Of a stretch of 64,000 nucleotides of DNA, positions 6,299 to 12,057 are shown in pieces. Source of the stretch: Balneolaceae bacterium (GTDB lineage: Bacteria > Bacteroidota > Rhodothermia > Balneolales > Balneolaceae); NCBI GenBank assembly GCA_006969905.1, contig CP030887.1:1-64000 (forward strand), in the 5' to 3' direction. The notes below the pieces were generated by a model, which was not told where the DNA came from, searched no databases, and saw nothing but the letters and a program-made list of their open reading frames with translations. Position 1 is the stretch's first letter. Each line of letters opens with the position of its first letter. The position numbers and the translations under genes were made by a program.

Positions 6299-6567
6299 GA
6301 TTCGATTTTTATGCCCTCTTCGCCATCCGTAGGTTCAATCAATTCATAACGATTAGAACCATGTCCTTCCAAATTCTTTCTAAGCACCCCCTTACTAATC
6401 AACCTTTGATAATGGGTAGTTACCGCATTCGTGCTGGCAAACCCAAAATGCCTCATAACCGTCTTAAAGCTTGGCATTTCACCTTCTTTGTTATAGTGCC
6501 ATCGCAAGAAATACAGGATATTGATCTGCTTATCGGTCAGGGTTGTATGTGTATCGGCACTGTTCAC
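6295..6567 (-). CDS. LexA-type DNA-binding domain protein without peptidase domain
   Basis: The 90-residue product has the LexA N-terminal winged-helix signature: 'LTDKQINILYFLRWH...GEMPSFKTVMRHFGFASTNAVTTHYQRLISKGVLRK' (about 10-65). The C-terminal autoprotease half of LexA is absent, so it cannot self-cleave. Its start at 6567 shares a base with the stop of the gene upstream. It could act as a stand-alone regulator, perhaps at sites for the host SOS system; that is inference. Confidence 0.75.
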   Translation of the reverse strand: MNSADTHTTLTDKQINILYFLRWHYNKEGEMPSFKTVMRHFGFASTNAVTTHYQRLISKGVLRKNLEGHGSNRYELIEPTDGEEGIKIES

Positions 6568-6836
6568 TATGAAGCCTCAGGGGTTGCCTTTTGCTGTTTT
6601 TCATTATTCTTTGGAGAGGAAGTACCCAATCGGTATTCAATTATTGATTCAGGTAGTTTTTCACTTTCTAAAATCTTAACTAAATCACCATGCTCTATGA
6701 CCTTATTGTTGCTTATCGTGCTATATGGAATTAAGCCCGACTGTATTCGCCGATCGACAGTTCCGTAAGATTTGCCAAGCACATCTGCTACTTCTTGAAC
6801 TGTGTACCAAATTGTATTTCCAAGTTTTGAGGGCAT
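6567..6836 (-). CDS. MerR/excisionase-like HTH protein, first gene of leftward block
   Basis: The 89-residue protein opens with 'WYTVQEVADVLGKSYGTVDRRIQSGLIPYSTISNNKVIEHGDLVKILE' (about 10-57), the helix-turn-helix plus wing of MerR, excisionase and AlpA-like proteins. It is the first gene of the leftward early operon and is divergent from the repressor gene, the position of a Cro- or Xis-type protein. The C-terminal 25 residues are polar and probably disordered. Whether it acts in excision or in regulation cannot be told from the sequence. Confidence 0.75.
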   Translation of the reverse strand: MPSKLGNTIWYTVQEVADVLGKSYGTVDRRIQSGLIPYSTISNNKVIEHGDLVKILESEKLPESIIEYRLGTSSPKNNEKQQKATPEAS

Positions 6837-6856: not shown

Positions 6857-7369
6857 ATGTTTTTTATAACTCATTCGCATGATACAACTTTGAATACAAA
6901 TAATCCAAATTTAATTACAAAAAATTTTGAATCTTTTGGTGATTCCCTTAAGTATTTATTAAAAAACAGGGGGTTAAAGCAGAAGTTTTTAGTTGAAAAA
7001 GCTAAAAAAGGAGCCGATGAAATAAGCAGATATGTTAATGATAAAGTCTTGCCCCACCCTGATACCCAAAATTTATTGGGTGATATATTGGGTGTTAGTT
7101 TTGAACAAGACACTAATGGGAAATGGTCTTATTCTGAAACTCACTCTCATATAAATGAGCCTGTAACAAATTATAATATGGTAAGCCAATCACGCCCTTT
7201 GAGTTATTCAGAAAGAGAAAGGCAAATGGAAGGGCTGATCGAGGAGCTTAGGGATGTGGCCAATGATATTGAGGCAACTATTTTAAAAAAGAAACTAGAC
7301 GAAAAAACAAAACTTCTGATTTTTGACGGGATTGCAAAAAGGCTAAATGATATCAATCAGAAGCTGTAA
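6857..7369 (+). CDS. XRE-like phage repressor
   Basis: At 170 residues from the ATG at 6857, it carries a helix-turn-helix (ESFGDSLKYLLKNRGLKQKFLVEKAKKGADEISRY, about 25-60), then a polar linker and a helical C-terminal half (about 110-170), probably for oligomerisation. It is the only rightward gene in the regulator block and is divergent from the Xis/Cro-like gene. A TTG at 6890 is an alternative start that would leave 53 bases for the divergent promoters instead of 20. I saw no clear operator palindrome. It overlaps the convergent TPR gene by 17 bases. Confidence 0.75.
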   Translation: MFFITHSHDTTLNTNNPNLITKNFESFGDSLKYLLKNRGLKQKFLVEKAKKGADEISRYVNDKVLPHPDTQNLLGDILGVSFEQDTNGKWSYSETHSHINEPVTNYNMVSQSRPLSYSERERQMEGLIEELRDVANDIEATILKKKLDEKTKLLIFDGIAKRLNDINQKL

Positions 7370-8327
7370 GGTATTTGTTCTTTAAAAATACAACAGAGCG
7401 CTGAAAATGTTTTATGTGCTTTCGGAACGTTTTGAAAATGAGAATGACCACAGCAAACACAAAAAGCTGTAAAACATTCATCCATTGTTCTTTGACATGC
7501 TTTTTTTGTAAGGCCAACACATAATTTGATTGGGTTTTAGCCTCATCAAAAAATAGCTCGAATCCAAATAACAGCGCATACTCTCTCGCATCCATATATG
7601 AAGCATAGGAAATGTCATATTCCTTGAGCTTTTTGTAGATCTTTCCTTCAGAAAGCAAGAAGGCTATTTTTGTCTCCATAATTGCGCCCGTAGTATCTAT
7701 CAAGTTATGATACTCAAGTGCAAGTTTAGGATCGTCTACATGTAAGCTGTGATTTGATAAATTCTTTAGATAAATATTGGTACGGTGTGTTTTCCGGTCA
7801 TCATCTGTAAACTGGTTCCAGTAAATAGCCTTCTGTAAATAAACAGTCATGCTATCATATTTCTGAAAGTACTCCAATACCCCAACAAAGTCATTGTAGT
7901 TTATCGCCTTCAACAAGGGGTATTCATCAGGAACCAAAGGCAGCCACTTTCTATAAATGGAATCAGCTTTAAAATAATCTCCAGTTTCTAATGCAATCCA
8001 AGCCCTGAAGAAATGTGTATCATAAAAATTAGGCATATACTTTATACGATCCATTGGAATGGCTCTGATAATGGCCAGAGCTTTATTAGAATTGCCTTCT
8101 TTAAAATGTGCCCTGGCTAAATGATTCAATGCAAACCATAAGGAATCATGAGTTAAGCCTTCTCTTTTTAAATCTTCGATAGAAATTAAGGTAACAGAAT
8201 CACTTTTGTCAGATACATATTCTGAGCGTATAAAATTATATAGTTCTACCCCTTTCTCAGTTGGCGTTTGAGCCAACACATTTGAAAGCGATAGAACTAA
8301 TAGTAATATAAATAGGCTTGGCTTCAA
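7353..8327 (-). CDS. Exported TPR protein with C-terminal membrane anchor
   Basis: This 324-residue protein starts at a TTG, with an N-terminal signal peptide (MKPSLFILLLVLSLSNVLAQ), then helical TPR-like repeats (about 60-270), a membrane segment 'VLQLFVFAVVILIFKTF' near 285-302, and a basic tail of about 20 residues. The outline matches Bacteroidota periplasmic TPR sensors, but the cytosolic HTH usual in those is missing. The start lies just after the stop of a Gly-rich ORF whose last codons (GGGGGAGGA) would serve as its Shine-Dalgarno. It is cargo between repressor and integrase. Confidence 0.7.
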   Translation of the reverse strand: MKPSLFILLLVLSLSNVLAQTPTEKGVELYNFIRSEYVSDKSDSVTLISIEDLKREGLTHDSLWFALNHLARAHFKEGNSNKALAIIRAIPMDRIKYMPNFYDTHFFRAWIALETGDYFKADSIYRKWLPLVPDEYPLLKAINYNDFVGVLEYFQKYDSMTVYLQKAIYWNQFTDDDRKTHRTNIYLKNLSNHSLHVDDPKLALEYHNLIDTTGAIMETKIAFLLSEGKIYKKLKEYDISYASYMDAREYALLFGFELFFDEAKTQSNYVLALQKKHVKEQWMNVLQLFVFAVVILIFKTFRKHIKHFQRSVVFLKNKYLTASD

Positions 8328-8459
8328 TTATCCTCCCCCTGAGCCAATACCTCCACCCGGACCAGATCCACCACCACTTCCTCCGGTACCTGTATTGCCA
8401 CCTCCGTTTTCCTCATCATCGTCTTGATTGTAAAAACGGTTCAATTTATAAGTGTTCAT
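8328..8459 (-). CDS. Glycine-rich 43-residue peptide
   Basis: An ATG at 8459 opens a 43-codon frame ending TAA at 8330-8328. The first 12 residues are basic/aromatic (MNTYKLNRFYNQ), the next five acidic (DDDEE), and the last 26 almost all Gly, Ser, Thr and Pro, ending GGG. The first bases (ATGAACACTTA) match the mini-ORF in leader module B. The stop is followed immediately by the TTG start of the TPR gene, so the two are coupled. It may be a secreted or modified peptide, a translational leader for the TPR gene, or a short structural tail. There is no homology evidence. Confidence 0.5.
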   Translation of the reverse strand: MNTYKLNRFYNQDDDEENGGGNTGTGGSGGGSGPGGGIGSGGG

Positions 8460-8588
8460 TGTTTTGTCCTTTATTGGTTAATGCAAATAGTTAGACCTAC
8501 TTGCAGGTTATTCCTTACAAAAAAAGATTAAATAATTTATAAATCAACGGTTTTTAATACATTACTCGCAATCAACCAACTATTGCTT

Positions 8589-8810: not shown

Positions 8811-8984
8811 ATGAAGCTCTTTAAATTTTACAACCCGCAATTTTCCTGGTCAATGATCATTTTTTGTGTCTTGATGATCCTTGCGGGTACATGTAGCTGG
8901 TATGTTGCCGATGAACCCAGAGACAACTGGGAAAGAGATCATTATATAGCCCCCCTTCCACCGGAGGCTTTGGGGTATGAATAA
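8811..8984 (+). CDS. Small membrane protein coupled to integrase
   Basis: The 57-residue product has one hydrophobic segment (SMIIFCVLMILAGTCSWYV, about 14-32) and a short acidic tail with PLPP. Its last eight bases overlap the integrase start: the ATG of the integrase gene at 8977 lies within the final codons, ahead of TAA at 8982-8984. That makes translational coupling likely and supports the frame. Family not recognised. Confidence 0.55.
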   Translation: MKLFKFYNPQFSWSMIIFCVLMILAGTCSWYVADEPRDNWERDHYIAPLPPEALGYE

Positions 8985-10050
8985 AAAAGTTTGGGTGTCC
9001 TACCGCAGGCTTAAATCGGGCAAATGGAAGATCCGGTTCAGAAGCCCCGGCCTTGGTGAGGCAGGGGTAACGCTGCCTAAAAACAAGCAGGAAAAAAAGG
9101 TCATTGAAAAAGTGGGCTGGTACAGGATTGAAATAGATGCAGGTCGGTTCGACCCCTGGGAAGATAAAAAGAAAAGCATCCCCATTGAAGCAGCCGTTCA
9201 GGGATATTTGGCAAACGGTAAGGGGAAAAAATGGAATGACAAAACCTATCAGGGTGTATCGTTCCGCTTGAACAGAATGATGGACGTGCTTGGCAGAACG
9301 GTAAAGGTTGACCGGGTAAAAGACTGGGATTGGTTTAGCGATTTACCCTACGCCCCCCATTCTAAAGAAGATTTCTTTTCAACAACCCGGGCATTTCTCA
9401 ATTGGTGCAAAAAACAGGGCTACCTGCAAAAGTTCAATGTAGAACTTCCATTGCAGGTCAGGAAAGAACTCAAACAGAAAAAAGTAAAGTATATCACCTG
9501 GTCTCAACTCGACCAGCTAGCTTCAGGGTACTTGGCGCTTAGGCAGGAAAGCAGCAAATTTGACTACAGAGGGTACGAACCGGAGCGGCACACACGCCTG
9601 TGGTGGGTAATGTTCTGGCAGCTGCTCAGAAAAGAAGAAGCGGGTGCGCTTACACATTCCAGCATACGTAAAGACAAAATGTATGTAGAAGGAAAAGGAG
9701 GTACCAGAAAAGAAATACCCATCGTACCCCCTGCAAAGCCCCATATAGAATGGTTTCTTGCCAACCCAATTAGTGATACCCTATTCGGGTTTCAGTCTAT
9801 GGACAGCCCAACTACCCAGCTTCGAAAAGCAATCATTGACGTGTTCGGAGAAGGCTTTCCAAGCAAGGGGTTCCATCAGCTCAGGCATGGTGGGATTGTC
9901 CATTATCTTACGGCTGGCAAGCCCCTGATTTATGTGAGCAGGCTTGCACGCCACAAAAGTATAACCACAACTGCCAATGAGTATGCGGACATTATAGAAG
10001 GAATGGAAGGAAGTGCCTTTGAGGACATACTTGACGAGCCGCTGGCATAG
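8977..10050 (+). CDS. int: Tyrosine-type site-specific integrase
   Basis: The 357-residue protein has an N-terminal arm/core-binding region with many Trp and Lys residues, then the catalytic domain. Visible active-site elements are the first Arg in 'FWQLLRKEEAGALT' (about 216), a Lys in the beta hairpin near 'VEGKGGTRKEIPI', HQLRHGG (about 302-308), and 'LARHKSITTTANEYAD' with the late His and the nucleophile Tyr (about 338). It catalyses integration and excision of the element. The gene ends about 170 bases from a split tRNA-Arg(TCT), which agrees with integration at that tRNA. Confidence 0.92.
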   Translation: MNKKVWVSYRRLKSGKWKIRFRSPGLGEAGVTLPKNKQEKKVIEKVGWYRIEIDAGRFDPWEDKKKSIPIEAAVQGYLANGKGKKWNDKTYQGVSFRLNRMMDVLGRTVKVDRVKDWDWFSDLPYAPHSKEDFFSTTRAFLNWCKKQGYLQKFNVELPLQVRKELKQKKVKYITWSQLDQLASGYLALRQESSKFDYRGYEPERHTRLWWVMFWQLLRKEEAGALTHSSIRKDKMYVEGKGGTRKEIPIVPPAKPHIEWFLANPISDTLFGFQSMDSPTTQLRKAIIDVFGEGFPSKGFHQLRHGGIVHYLTAGKPLIYVSRLARHKSITTTANEYADIIEGMEGSAFEDILDEPLA

Positions 10051-10073
10051 AAAAAAAATCCAATTTAATGTTC

Positions 10074-10093
10074 ACACTTTTTGGCAAAAGTGT
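10074..10093 (+). other. Perfect palindrome after integrase gene
   Basis: ACACTTTT and AAAAGTGT flank a 4-base TGGC loop. It lies 24 bases after the integrase stop. It could be a weak terminator hairpin or a binding site. A TACCTTTG box, like a Bacteroidota -7 element, follows at 10094-10101. Confidence 0.4.
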
Positions 10094-10112
10094 TACCTTT
10101 GAAGTCTGAAAA

Positions 10113-10156
10113 TATGGCAATCACGGGCACATAACGGGCTGTTAAATTTTGCCATA
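10113..10156. other. Inverted and direct repeats near the att site
   Basis: TATGGCAA (10113-10120) and TTGCCATA (10149-10156) form an inverted repeat that encloses two ACGGGC direct repeats, at 10123-10128 and 10134-10139, spaced 11 bp apart. Placed between integrase and attachment core, such repeats are candidates for integrase arm-type or excisionase sites. No experiment-like evidence is visible. Confidence 0.35.
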
Positions 10157-10220
10157 ATTTTCTAAGGCTGTAAAACATTGGTATTCAATACATTATATAA
10201 TTTGTTATCAGTTGCCAGCT

Positions 10221-10266
10221 TTGCCTTCTAAGCAGTAGGTTTCAGGTTCGAGTCCTGACGGGCGTA
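10221..10266 (+). other. Attachment site: 3' fragment of tRNA-Arg(TCT)
   Basis: The text starts within the anticodon stem, has loop CTTCTAA (anticodon TCT), then the variable region, a perfect T-arm (TCAGG-TTCGAGT-CCTGA at 10242-10258), the 3' acceptor strand CGGGCGT and discriminator A at 10266. The D-arm and 5' acceptor strand are missing; upstream is element DNA. This is the usual outcome when a tyrosine integrase crosses over in an anticodon region. The complete tRNA-Arg should be restored at the other end of the element, left of this window. Confidence 0.85.
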
Positions 10267-10287
10267 CAACATCTACTTGCTTTGCAA

Positions 10288-10358
10288 GGCGACATGGCCG
10301 AGTGGCTAGGCAGAGGTCTGCAAAACCTCGTACGGCGGTTCGAATCCGCCTGTCGCCT
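10288..10358 (+). tRNA. tRNA-Cys (GCA)
   Basis: The 71-base cloverleaf has acceptor GGCGACA/TGTCGCC, anticodon stem GAGGT/ACCTC around CTGCAAA (anticodon GCA), and T-loop TTCGAAT. The discriminator is T, as expected for tRNA-Cys. CCA is not encoded. It is the first intact tRNA after the split tRNA-Arg. Confidence 0.95.
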
Positions 10359-10391
10359 CACAGTTGTATTTGAAATATTGATTTCTTGATT

Positions 10392-10464
10392 GCCGCGTTC
10401 GTCTAGAGGCCTAGGACGCCGCCCTTTCACGGCGGTAGCACGGGTTCGAATCCCGTACGCGGTA
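10392..10464 (+). tRNA. tRNA-Glu (TTC), copy 1
   Basis: The anticodon stem CCGCC/GGCGG encloses CTTTCAC (anticodon TTC), and the T-arm is CGGGTTCGAATCCCG. The acceptor pairs as GCCGCGT/ACGCGGT with a G.T first pair. CCA is not encoded here. It is identical over its full length to the second copy at 10575. Confidence 0.95.
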
Positions 10465-10471
10465 CTATAAT

Positions 10472-10546
10472 GGAGCCCGTAGCTCAGTTGGTTAGAGCGC
10501 CAGGTTGTGGCCCTGGAGGCCGTGGGTTCAATTCCCATCGGGCTCC
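10472..10546 (+). tRNA. tRNA-His (GTG)
   Basis: The anticodon stem CCAGG/CCTGG encloses TTGTGGC (anticodon GTG). The encoded extra 5' G at 10472 pairs with the discriminator C at 10546, the identity feature of bacterial tRNA-His. CCA is not encoded. It lies between the two tRNA-Glu genes. Confidence 0.95.
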
Positions 10547-10574
10547 CTCTTATTGATCATATTGTTTTCATGAT

Positions 10575-10650
10575 GCCGCGTTCGTCTAGAGGCCTAGGAC
10601 GCCGCCCTTTCACGGCGGTAGCACGGGTTCGAATCCCGTACGCGGTACCA
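10575..10650 (+). tRNA. tRNA-Glu (TTC), copy 2, with encoded CCA
   Basis: The 73-base body is identical to copy 1, which points to recent duplication or gene conversion. Unlike copy 1, the discriminator A at 10647 is followed by CCA (10648-10650). It is the last gene of the tRNA run, and a terminator follows directly. Confidence 0.95.
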
Positions 10651-10681
10651 AAAGCCTTCAGTAAACTGAAGGCTTTTTTTG
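10649..10681 (+). terminator. Intrinsic terminator of tRNA operon
   Basis: AAAAGCCTTCAG, loop TAAA, CTGAAGGCTTTT and a T-run form a perfect stem of about 12 bp, starting right at the CCA of the last tRNA. It closes the tRNA operon. Confidence 0.92.
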
Positions 10682-10743
10682 TTTAGATGAGCGAATTACC
10701 ATAAAGTCTATTACATTCTTTCGCAATTAAACTCTTTCACTTT

Positions 10744-12057
10744 ATGGAAAACAAATCTTCTTCAAACCGCTCTGCCTTAATTGTGGTAACCACGCTCTTC
10801 TTTATGTGGGGGTTTATCACTGTTTTAGTGGATGCACTGATACCTCGCCTCAGGGATGTGTTTGAGCTTAGTTATTTCCAGGCAGGTTTGGTTCAGTTTT
10901 CCTTTTTTACTGCTTACTTTTTTATATCTATTCCCAGTGGAGGATTGATTGCTAAAATCGGTTATAAAAAAGGAGTAATTGTTGGTTTAATGACAATGGG
11001 TGTTGGTTGCCTGCTATTTTACCCCGCAGCATCATTGCGTTTGTTCCCGATATTTTTACTTGCCCTGTTTGTTCTGGCCGGAGGGATTACCATTCTTCAG
11101 GTTGCAGCCAATCCTTATGTAGCTGCACTAGGGCCTGCTAAAACAGCATCCAGTAGGTTAAATCTTTCACAAGCTTTCAATTCACTGGGAACCACACTCG
11201 CTCCTCTCGTTAGCGCAGCCTTTATTTTGAGTAACACCGTGGCCAGTTCTTCTGAAGTTTCTGCTATGTCAGAACTTGAACGTGAGGCTTACTTTGTAGC
11301 TGAGGCAAGCTCTGTTCAGGGCCCATTTATCACTTTGGCAGTTGTGCTGGTTGCCCTGGCCGGGGTTTTTGCTGTCTTCAAACTTCCTAAAATCTTAGAA
11401 GGCGATCATGATAAATCGGGAAGCTACAAAGCTGCTTTCAGAACTAAGCACCTGATGTTTGGTGCACTTGGAATTTTCCTTTATGTGGGAGCCGAAGTTA
11501 CCATCGGGAGCTACCTGGTCAATTATTTCCTGACCTTGGATGTTTCCTCATTAATAAATGAAAGTGGCATCATGAGTTCGATCGCTCGCTTTCTTTCGGG
11601 TTCAGATTTGGAAGAACTTAACCCGGTTCGTTTGGCAGGTACCTTTGTATTCTTTTACTGGGGAGGTGCTATGATAGGGCGTTTCATTGGCTCGGCTTTA
11701 CAGCTTAAAGTGAAACCAAACCTGCTGCTAATGATCTACGCTTTGACCAATGTTCTTTTATTGACCTTTACAATGCTCAGCAGTTCTTATGTAGCTTTCT
11801 GGACCATTCTGAGTATTGGGTTATTCAATTCCATCATGTTCCCAACCATATTTACACTTTCTATTGACGGATTGGGAAATAATACTGCGCAGGGCTCCGG
11901 TATTTTATGTACTGCTATTGTAGGAGGCGCAATTATTCCCCCTCTCTATGGATTGATTGCCGATCTTTCAAGCCTGCAGGTTGCCTTTATTTTACCTTTA
12001 TTTTGTTACCTGTACATAGCATGGTATGGCAAATTTGGCTTCTTTCACAGAAACTAA
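10744..12057 (+). CDS. FucP/GluP-type sugar:H+ symporter (MFS)
   Basis: The 437-residue protein has about 12 membrane segments. The FucP/GluP subfamily marks are the N-terminal 'FFMWGFITVLVDALIPRLRDVF' and 'LQVAANPYVAALGP...SSRLNLSQAFNSLGTTLAPL' (about 120-158). Members import fucose, glucose or galactose with protons; the exact sugar is not readable. It stands alone after the tRNA terminator. The stop codon overlaps that of the convergent glycosyltransferase by four bases (CTAA). Confidence 0.88.
   Translation: MENKSSSNRSALIVVTTLFFMWGFITVLVDALIPRLRDVFELSYFQAGLVQFSFFTAYFFISIPSGGLIAKIGYKKGVIVGLMTMGVGCLLFYPAASLRLFPIFLLALFVLAGGITILQVAANPYVAALGPAKTASSRLNLSQAFNSLGTTLAPLVSAAFILSNTVASSSEVSAMSELEREAYFVAEASSVQGPFITLAVVLVALAGVFAVFKLPKILEGDHDKSGSYKAAFRTKHLMFGALGIFLYVGAEVTIGSYLVNYFLTLDVSSLINESGIMSSIARFLSGSDLEELNPVRLAGTFVFFYWGGAMIGRFIGSALQLKVKPNLLLMIYALTNVLLLTFTMLSSSYVAFWTILSIGLFNSIMFPTIFTLSIDGLGNNTAQGSGILCTAIVGGAIIPPLYGLIADLSSLQVAFILPLFCYLYIAWYGKFGFFHRN

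Follow-up and report, generated by a model that had tools for sequence, protein, structure and literature searches.

A question raised by this locus is why a prophage of a marine Balneola (Balneolaceae) bacterium carries, between its repressor and its integrase, a short glycine-rich peptide gene coupled to the gene for an exported TPR-like protein. The original prediction, made from the window (the whole 64,000-nucleotide stretch that was analyzed, positions 1 to 64,000 of contig CP030887.1), was that the two might form a peptide-sensing system analogous to the peptide-TPR pairs that control lysogeny in some Firmicutes phages, with a simple leader peptide as the plainer reading. We argue here that a peptide/TPR input to a regulatory circuit is plausible, and that such a circuit would be one for competence rather than lysogeny.

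The peptide-TPR pair and its prophage

By its sequence, the prophage that contains the window's pair is integrated at a tRNA, and its gene set comprises RecT, an SbcC-like protein, an excisionase, a repressor and an integrase. The features of the region are as follows.

6567-6836, minus strand: excisionase/MerR-type HTH_17 protein
6857-7369, plus strand: HTH repressor-like prophage gene (Pfam HTH_3 below cutoff; PHROG transcriptional regulator)
7353-8327, minus strand: TTG-started exported TPR-like protein of 324 aa, with a homologue in genome G004
8328-8459, minus strand: 43-aa Gly-rich peptide MNTYKLNRFYNQDDDEENGGGNTGTGGSGGGSGPGGGIGSGGG, its frame kept in two more copies in G004
8331-8336, minus strand: GGAGGA, the last two Gly codons and, from the sequence, also the Shine-Dalgarno of the TPR gene
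8467-8472, minus strand: Shine-Dalgarno-like AAAGGA of the peptide ORF (AAAAGGAG in G004), in a leader conserved across three copies
8490-8521, minus strand: ECF-type promoter of the pair (-35 TTTGTAAGGAAT at 8510-8521, -10 GTCTAAC at 8490-8496, N13 between)
8977-10050, plus strand: prophage tyrosine integrase (Pfam Phage_integrase, below cutoff)
10222-10267, plus strand: attachment repeat (tRNA 3' end), a 46-bp exact repeat identical to L036 10338-10383 at the other prophage end

The repressor-like gene and the TPR gene are convergent and overlap tail to tail by 17 bp, and the pair is flanked by repressor and integrase as had been described. Tail-fibre-like ORFs are found at the far end of the contig. 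At the contig break (window position 1 and the end of contig C1, L036:19856) the prophage itself is interrupted, within a tail-protein ORF, and hence the assembly probably lacks part of the phage. Structural genes seem to be absent, and the single-contig genome may not be closed.

Both ORFs of the pair were recovered as originally predicted, with the 43-residue peptide directly before the TTG-started gene. The junction reads GGAGGA-TAA-TTG, such that the TTG of the TPR gene is immediately 3' of the peptide's TAA and the final two Gly codons do serve as a Shine-Dalgarno sequence. Glycine accounts for 40% of the peptide ORF; of the window's 100 ATG-started ORFs of 38-60 aa, the next richest has 15%. 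The Gly-rich run extends over 25 codons with mixed third bases, and the use of all four indicates that the amino acids have been kept and that the run is not a DNA repeat. Inspection of its sequence revealed no hydrophobic segment or signal sequence in the peptide.

The TPR-like protein is comprised of a signal peptide (residues 1-20), weak TPR repeats, a C-terminal transmembrane segment (residues ~281-302) and a basic tail. Both the signal peptide and the C-terminal anchor were seen by hydropathy, in agreement with the earlier view that the protein is exported and so differs in topology from the cytosolic proteins of the Firmicutes pairs. The first internal Met is residue 92, which is beyond the signal peptide, and thus the TTG is the sole start that retains it. 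The TPR identity is weaker than had been claimed: Pfam TPR models do match the protein, but below their gathering scores (TPR_8, E=4.6e-4), and the matches are weak in both homologues. Pfam identified no HTH in the protein and no CHAT protease domain or other recognised catalytic domain was found in it, and its AlphaFold model is poor (pLDDT 54).

The TPR gene is present in two of eight Balneola genomes, the window's own and G004, a Balneola sp. MAG (loci L002 and L034), and the two proteins are 54% identical. G004 has two tandem units of peptide and TPR gene. Copy a has an intact 55-aa peptide followed by a TPR gene that is cut off shortly past the signal peptide, and copy b has a 42-aa peptide with a full-length TPR gene. 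The stop-to-start distance is 0-1 nt in all three copies, and the TPR starts are TTG, TTG and GTG. Since a second Balneola genome has the same arrangement, the peptide frame and its coupling appear to be conserved rather than due to chance. Across these two genomes, which are the only ones to carry the pair, the TPR gene never occurs without the peptide and starts with TTG or GTG throughout, as the original prediction would have it. Stop-codon readthrough fusing peptide and TPR protein was considered as a common principle and is excluded because the peptide and TPR frames differ at the G004 junctions (TAA-C-TTG and TAA-A-GTG). A single-sequence query of genome contigs retrieved no relative of the TPR protein, and an alignment-based one retrieved only the G004 locus; beyond that locus and generic TPR matches, there were no other relatives in the class (245 genomes) or in a phylum sample (394), and none in phages, plasmids or viral contigs.

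One reading of this arrangement is that the peptide is a mere translational leader which supplies a Gly-codon Shine-Dalgarno to a weak TTG or GTG start, and that the TPR protein works alone. The tight stop/start spacing and the invariable use of TTG or GTG are as expected for such a leader. A Gly-rich stretch over 25 codons with mixed third bases is not, nor is the intact 55-aa peptide that copy a retains despite its shortened TPR gene. This reading is weakened further because similar peptides occur as separate genes beside an exported TPR-CHAT-type gene in 15 of 15 genomes (see below), and we consider it unlikely. Of the simple leader peptide that was once the plainer interpretation, the coupling to a weak start stands and the sufficiency of that role is in doubt.

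In G004, the pair is downstream of Rhs genes in a tandem array, with no phage repressor beside it and no recognisable prophage. The G004 array (L034:17-6816 and 9296-10876) also has a third, lone copy of the promoter and a TPR remnant.

The promoter of the pair and the regulon that shares it

The promoter of the pair has the two-box form of ECF-type promoters (a -35 with GGAA and a -10 with GTC, at fixed spacing). It is the only such site in the window, and none of 100 shuffles contained one. A common leader, TTTTTGTAAGGAAT-N13-GTCTAAC, precedes all three peptide copies, both G004 copies included. When genomes were searched with the pattern TTTGTAAGGAAN{8,30}GTCTWAC, with the reversed pattern as a control, eight Balneola genomes yielded 106 matches versus 1 for the control. 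In the 105 instances that were read (loci L003-L119), the spacing between GTAAGGAA and GTCTWAC is 14 nt (78 instances), 13 nt (26) or 15 nt (1), and TTT precedes GTAAGG in nearly all of them. Several further genera of the family also have the Balneola form of the motif, which had no match in ~150 genomes from outside the family. The search of the window's own genome gave 21 matches versus 4 reversed controls, and its sites include G000:C1:488284, 776761, 1033813, 2022613 and 2163883.

Genes follow the motif closely and on the same strand, their starts often 5-40 nt downstream. The genes behind it include comEC, comM, ssb, recA, radC, integron integrases (IntI) and several Y1/RAYT transposase families, together with GIY-YIG nucleases, four-helix (S23) proteins, and DUF559 and PDDEXK_3 proteins. 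In the window's own genome the motif is carried, with 0-2 mismatches, by comM, radC, comEC, ssb, recA, GIY-YIG, S23, DUF559 and RAYT genes. The regulon thus covers genes for DNA uptake and ssDNA integration (comEC, comM, ssb, recA and radC) in both this genome and its relatives, and from these genes we infer that it is a competence regulon. The pair very probably belongs to it. Such an ECF-sigma competence regulon is apparently undescribed, as we did not find it in the literature searched, which likewise yielded no paper on Balneola competence.

GIY-YIG nucleases act on ssDNA in Neisseria transformation. The RAYT, GIY-YIG, S23, DUF559 and integron integrase genes are mostly puzzling stand-alone genes, and their placement under the promoter of comEC, ssb and recA suggests a common role on incoming ssDNA. 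The motif gives sequence-based access to the way in which an entire family of bacteria may activate DNA uptake, and to the companion genes of that process. An additional locus, G000:C1:2329071-2329138 (L155/L165), has divergent genes for an HU-like DNA-binding protein and a peptidase/endolysin-like protein with a weak copy of the motif on each side.

The possibility that the motif is a LexA box was rejected, given that the published Balneolaeota LexA site is TTACACATATTTTWTACATA (PMC7739468). While recA is a target common to the LexA/SOS regulon of Balneolaeota (PMC7739468) and to the regulon described here, the latter has a two-box ECF promoter over competence and ssDNA-processing genes.

Arbitrium and other RRNPPA systems have a cytosolic HTH-TPR receptor, and their peptide is exported and then re-imported. 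If the prophage pair were a lysogeny switch of this kind, the TPR protein would read the peptide and govern prophage induction. The site between repressor and integrase and the pairing of a peptide with a TPR protein are what suggested this mechanism, and in RRNPPA/arbitrium systems and ComRS (PMC6224593), too, a short peptide gene adjoins a TPR gene, whether the setting is a phage or the control of competence. However, the TPR-like protein here is exported, lacks an HTH and has a C-terminal transmembrane segment, the peptide has no signal sequence for export, the homologous pair sits in an Rhs array, and the promoter is that of a host regulon. The proposal of lysogeny control on the Firmicutes model did not withstand these findings, and we regard it as very improbable.

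Alternatively, the pair could be an envelope moron that keeps other phages from superinfecting or injecting their DNA, and its activation along with competence would be incidental. An exported membrane-anchored protein with its own promoter, at a moron position in the lysogeny module, would suit this role, yet the pair had no match in PADLOC, phages or plasmids and its second copy is outside any recognisable prophage. We consider a moron of this type improbable, if less so than a lysogeny switch. In the reading that we prefer, the pair is an accessory operon of the prophage, and of the Rhs locus in the relative, that is wired into the host ECF-sigma regulon, and this may well be the case.

The ECF sigma locus and the peptide beside TPR-CHAT

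One motif site in the window's own genome has an ECF sigma gene on one side and, on the other, a gene whose product is a membrane protein that combines an N-terminal domain with TPR repeats at its C terminus. From its position, topology and co-regulation, this membrane protein is a putative anti-sigma factor. In each of the eight Balneola genomes the motif falls between the ECF sigma gene, 1-2 nt past its stop codon, and the anti-sigma gene; the match is exact in seven of them and has a mismatch in the eighth. Among the family loci that were scored, which were identified by residue pattern and neighbouring genes, the motif is at most 9 nt from the sigma stop, with at most two mismatches, in 25 of 25. 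An integron-integrase-like gene without an exact motif is located ~6 kb from the ECF sigma locus of the window's own genome (L044:582-1544, plus strand).

The sigma loci of genus g4 (L189-L205) have a -10 of GCTCTWAC instead of GGTCTWAC. This g4 form has 140 matches in nine g4 genomes and none in six Balneola genomes or in the reversed controls, and the Balneola form is absent from the g4 genomes. The genes behind the g4-form sites (L225-L254) include comM, recA, recQ, IntI, RAYT, S23 and GIY-YIG. Since in g4 the sigma-locus site has changed in step with the entire regulon, the motif appears to be tied to the sigma factor, and this covariation is the strongest sequence evidence that the ECF sigma reads the motif.

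Near the sigma gene, past ScpA and an M28 peptidase, is a gene for an exported TPR-CHAT protein, with the CHAT domain recognized by Pfam in the window's own genome and by residue pattern and synteny in the others. A short ORF of 32-49 aa is divergent from this exported TPR-CHAT-type gene in 15 of 15 genomes from several genera. Most of these core peptide ORFs have a Shine-Dalgarno-like stretch, and they have a Gly/Asp/Pro-rich tail, for example MDTLYTNRFKIPDGDDPPGGKPGSGSGSGSGDGGTGGDTLT. Between genomes G002 and G003, the first 20 codons of the core peptide have three synonymous and no non-synonymous differences. The core peptide ORFs (L044:13509-13637, plus strand, and L256-L269) are probably unannotated. 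Being divergent, they are not cotranscribed with the TPR-CHAT gene, and the sigma motif was not seen upstream of those core peptides whose upstream regions were read.

The N-terminal layout of the prophage peptide is like that of the peptides beside TPR-CHAT, and in comparisons of the first 18 residues, the mobile-element peptides scored better against the core peptides than shuffles did (mean-score p of 0.0005, 0.002 and 0.0015). As the peptides are small and biased in composition, we refer to this as a resemblance and not as proven homology. For the TPR-like protein itself, the similarity to TPR-CHAT seen with HMMER --max and hhalign was no more than that of generic TPR repeats, and we do not claim that it is a TPR-CHAT homologue.

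In type III-E CRISPR systems, a TPR-CHAT protease cuts an inhibitor of an ECF-type sigma factor; the Craspase (type III-E CASP) components are the TPR-CHAT protein Csx29, the inhibitor Csx30 and the ECF-like CASP-sigma (PMC10028731). The Balneolaceae core locus, as distinct from the prophage pair, is similar in having a TPR-CHAT protease, an ECF sigma, a putative inhibitor and a sigma motif. It differs in that its TPR-CHAT protein is exported, its anti-sigma is a membrane protein that has a TPR domain, and it also includes a short peptide gene. No CRISPR genes and no Cas7-11 effector were found among the ORFs of the sigma loci that were read, and we do not classify the core locus as Craspase.

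Possible function of the pair

What might a prophage gain from a peptide and an exported TPR-like protein under this promoter? One possibility, which we favor tentatively and by analogy, is that the cassette damps competence as a version of the core peptide and exported-TPR arm that is carried by the phage and lacks the protease. The core locus encodes the ECF sigma, the putative anti-sigma (a membrane protein whose TPR domain is periplasmic), the exported TPR-CHAT protease and the Gly/Asp/Pro-rich peptide, and the sigma factor would be released by proteolysis. Released sigma would transcribe the prophage cassette from its own promoter. The peptide would be translated first, and the TPR-like protein, anchored in the inner membrane, would be produced by stop/start coupling from its weak TTG. 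As a mobile counterpart of the core arm that lacks the protease, the pair could then act as a decoy in a negative feedback, tying up the partner of either the TPR-CHAT protease or the anti-sigma. Damped activation of the sigma factor, and with it of DNA uptake, would guard the prophage against removal by transformation. If this is the case, the prophage may interfere with its host's uptake of foreign DNA. It is hard to see in this scheme how a cytosolic peptide with no export signal would reach a TPR protein located in the periplasm.

Precedents exist for such a conflict, since transformation can remove prophages and prophages often inhibit transformation (PMC4774983). The prophage protein paratox (Prx) is switched on by the streptococcal competence pathway via a CIN-box and inhibits ComR, a TPR-type competence regulator (PMC6224593). 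Here too, to judge from the attachment repeats and the promoter, a prophage gene is under a host competence-sigma promoter, with competence deduced from the regulon genes. Unlike Prx, which is one cytosolic protein that targets ComR, the Balneola cassette encodes both a peptide and an exported TPR-like protein, is controlled by an ECF sigma, and has an inhibitory action that is conjectural. The pair had no Prx-like family match in Pfam or NCBIfam, fold comparison was precluded by the poor model, and we do not assign the pair as a Prx homologue. A prophage on a competence promoter, as with paratox in streptococci, would make the conflict between mobile elements and transformation testable in an unrelated lineage.

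A more general scheme is that competence throughout the Balneolaceae is controlled by the ECF sigma, with the Gly/Asp/Pro-rich peptide and the exported TPR-CHAT protease acting as input on the membrane anti-sigma with its TPR domain, and that prophages and Rhs loci feed back on the circuit through peptide/TPR copies that lack the protease and have the promoter of this sigma. Taken as a whole, this scheme is somewhat unlikely.

The same circuit could also operate with the opposite sign, in which case the pair would boost competence or add an uptake or DNA-processing function that aids prophage spread or host recombination. The regulon consists mostly of effectors (ssb, comEC, nucleases and integrase) rather than inhibitors, and IntI and RAYT are mobile-element enzymes that could gain from competence. 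Activation would account for the data nearly as well as damping. On the other hand, the TPR protein has no recognised catalytic domain and its layout is like that of a protease-less TPR arm, and a small anti-sigma fragment in the regulon suggests that inhibitors are recruited too. We therefore hold activation to be unlikely, and damping to be the preferred reading. The fragment is a 48-aa isolated anti-sigma N-domain-like protein (44% identity, E=2e-9), and it points the same way as damping. It is encoded in a regulon cassette of another genome (L099; G006:C18:129100-130700, minus strand), where it is followed by an exported metallo-beta-lactamase-like protein.
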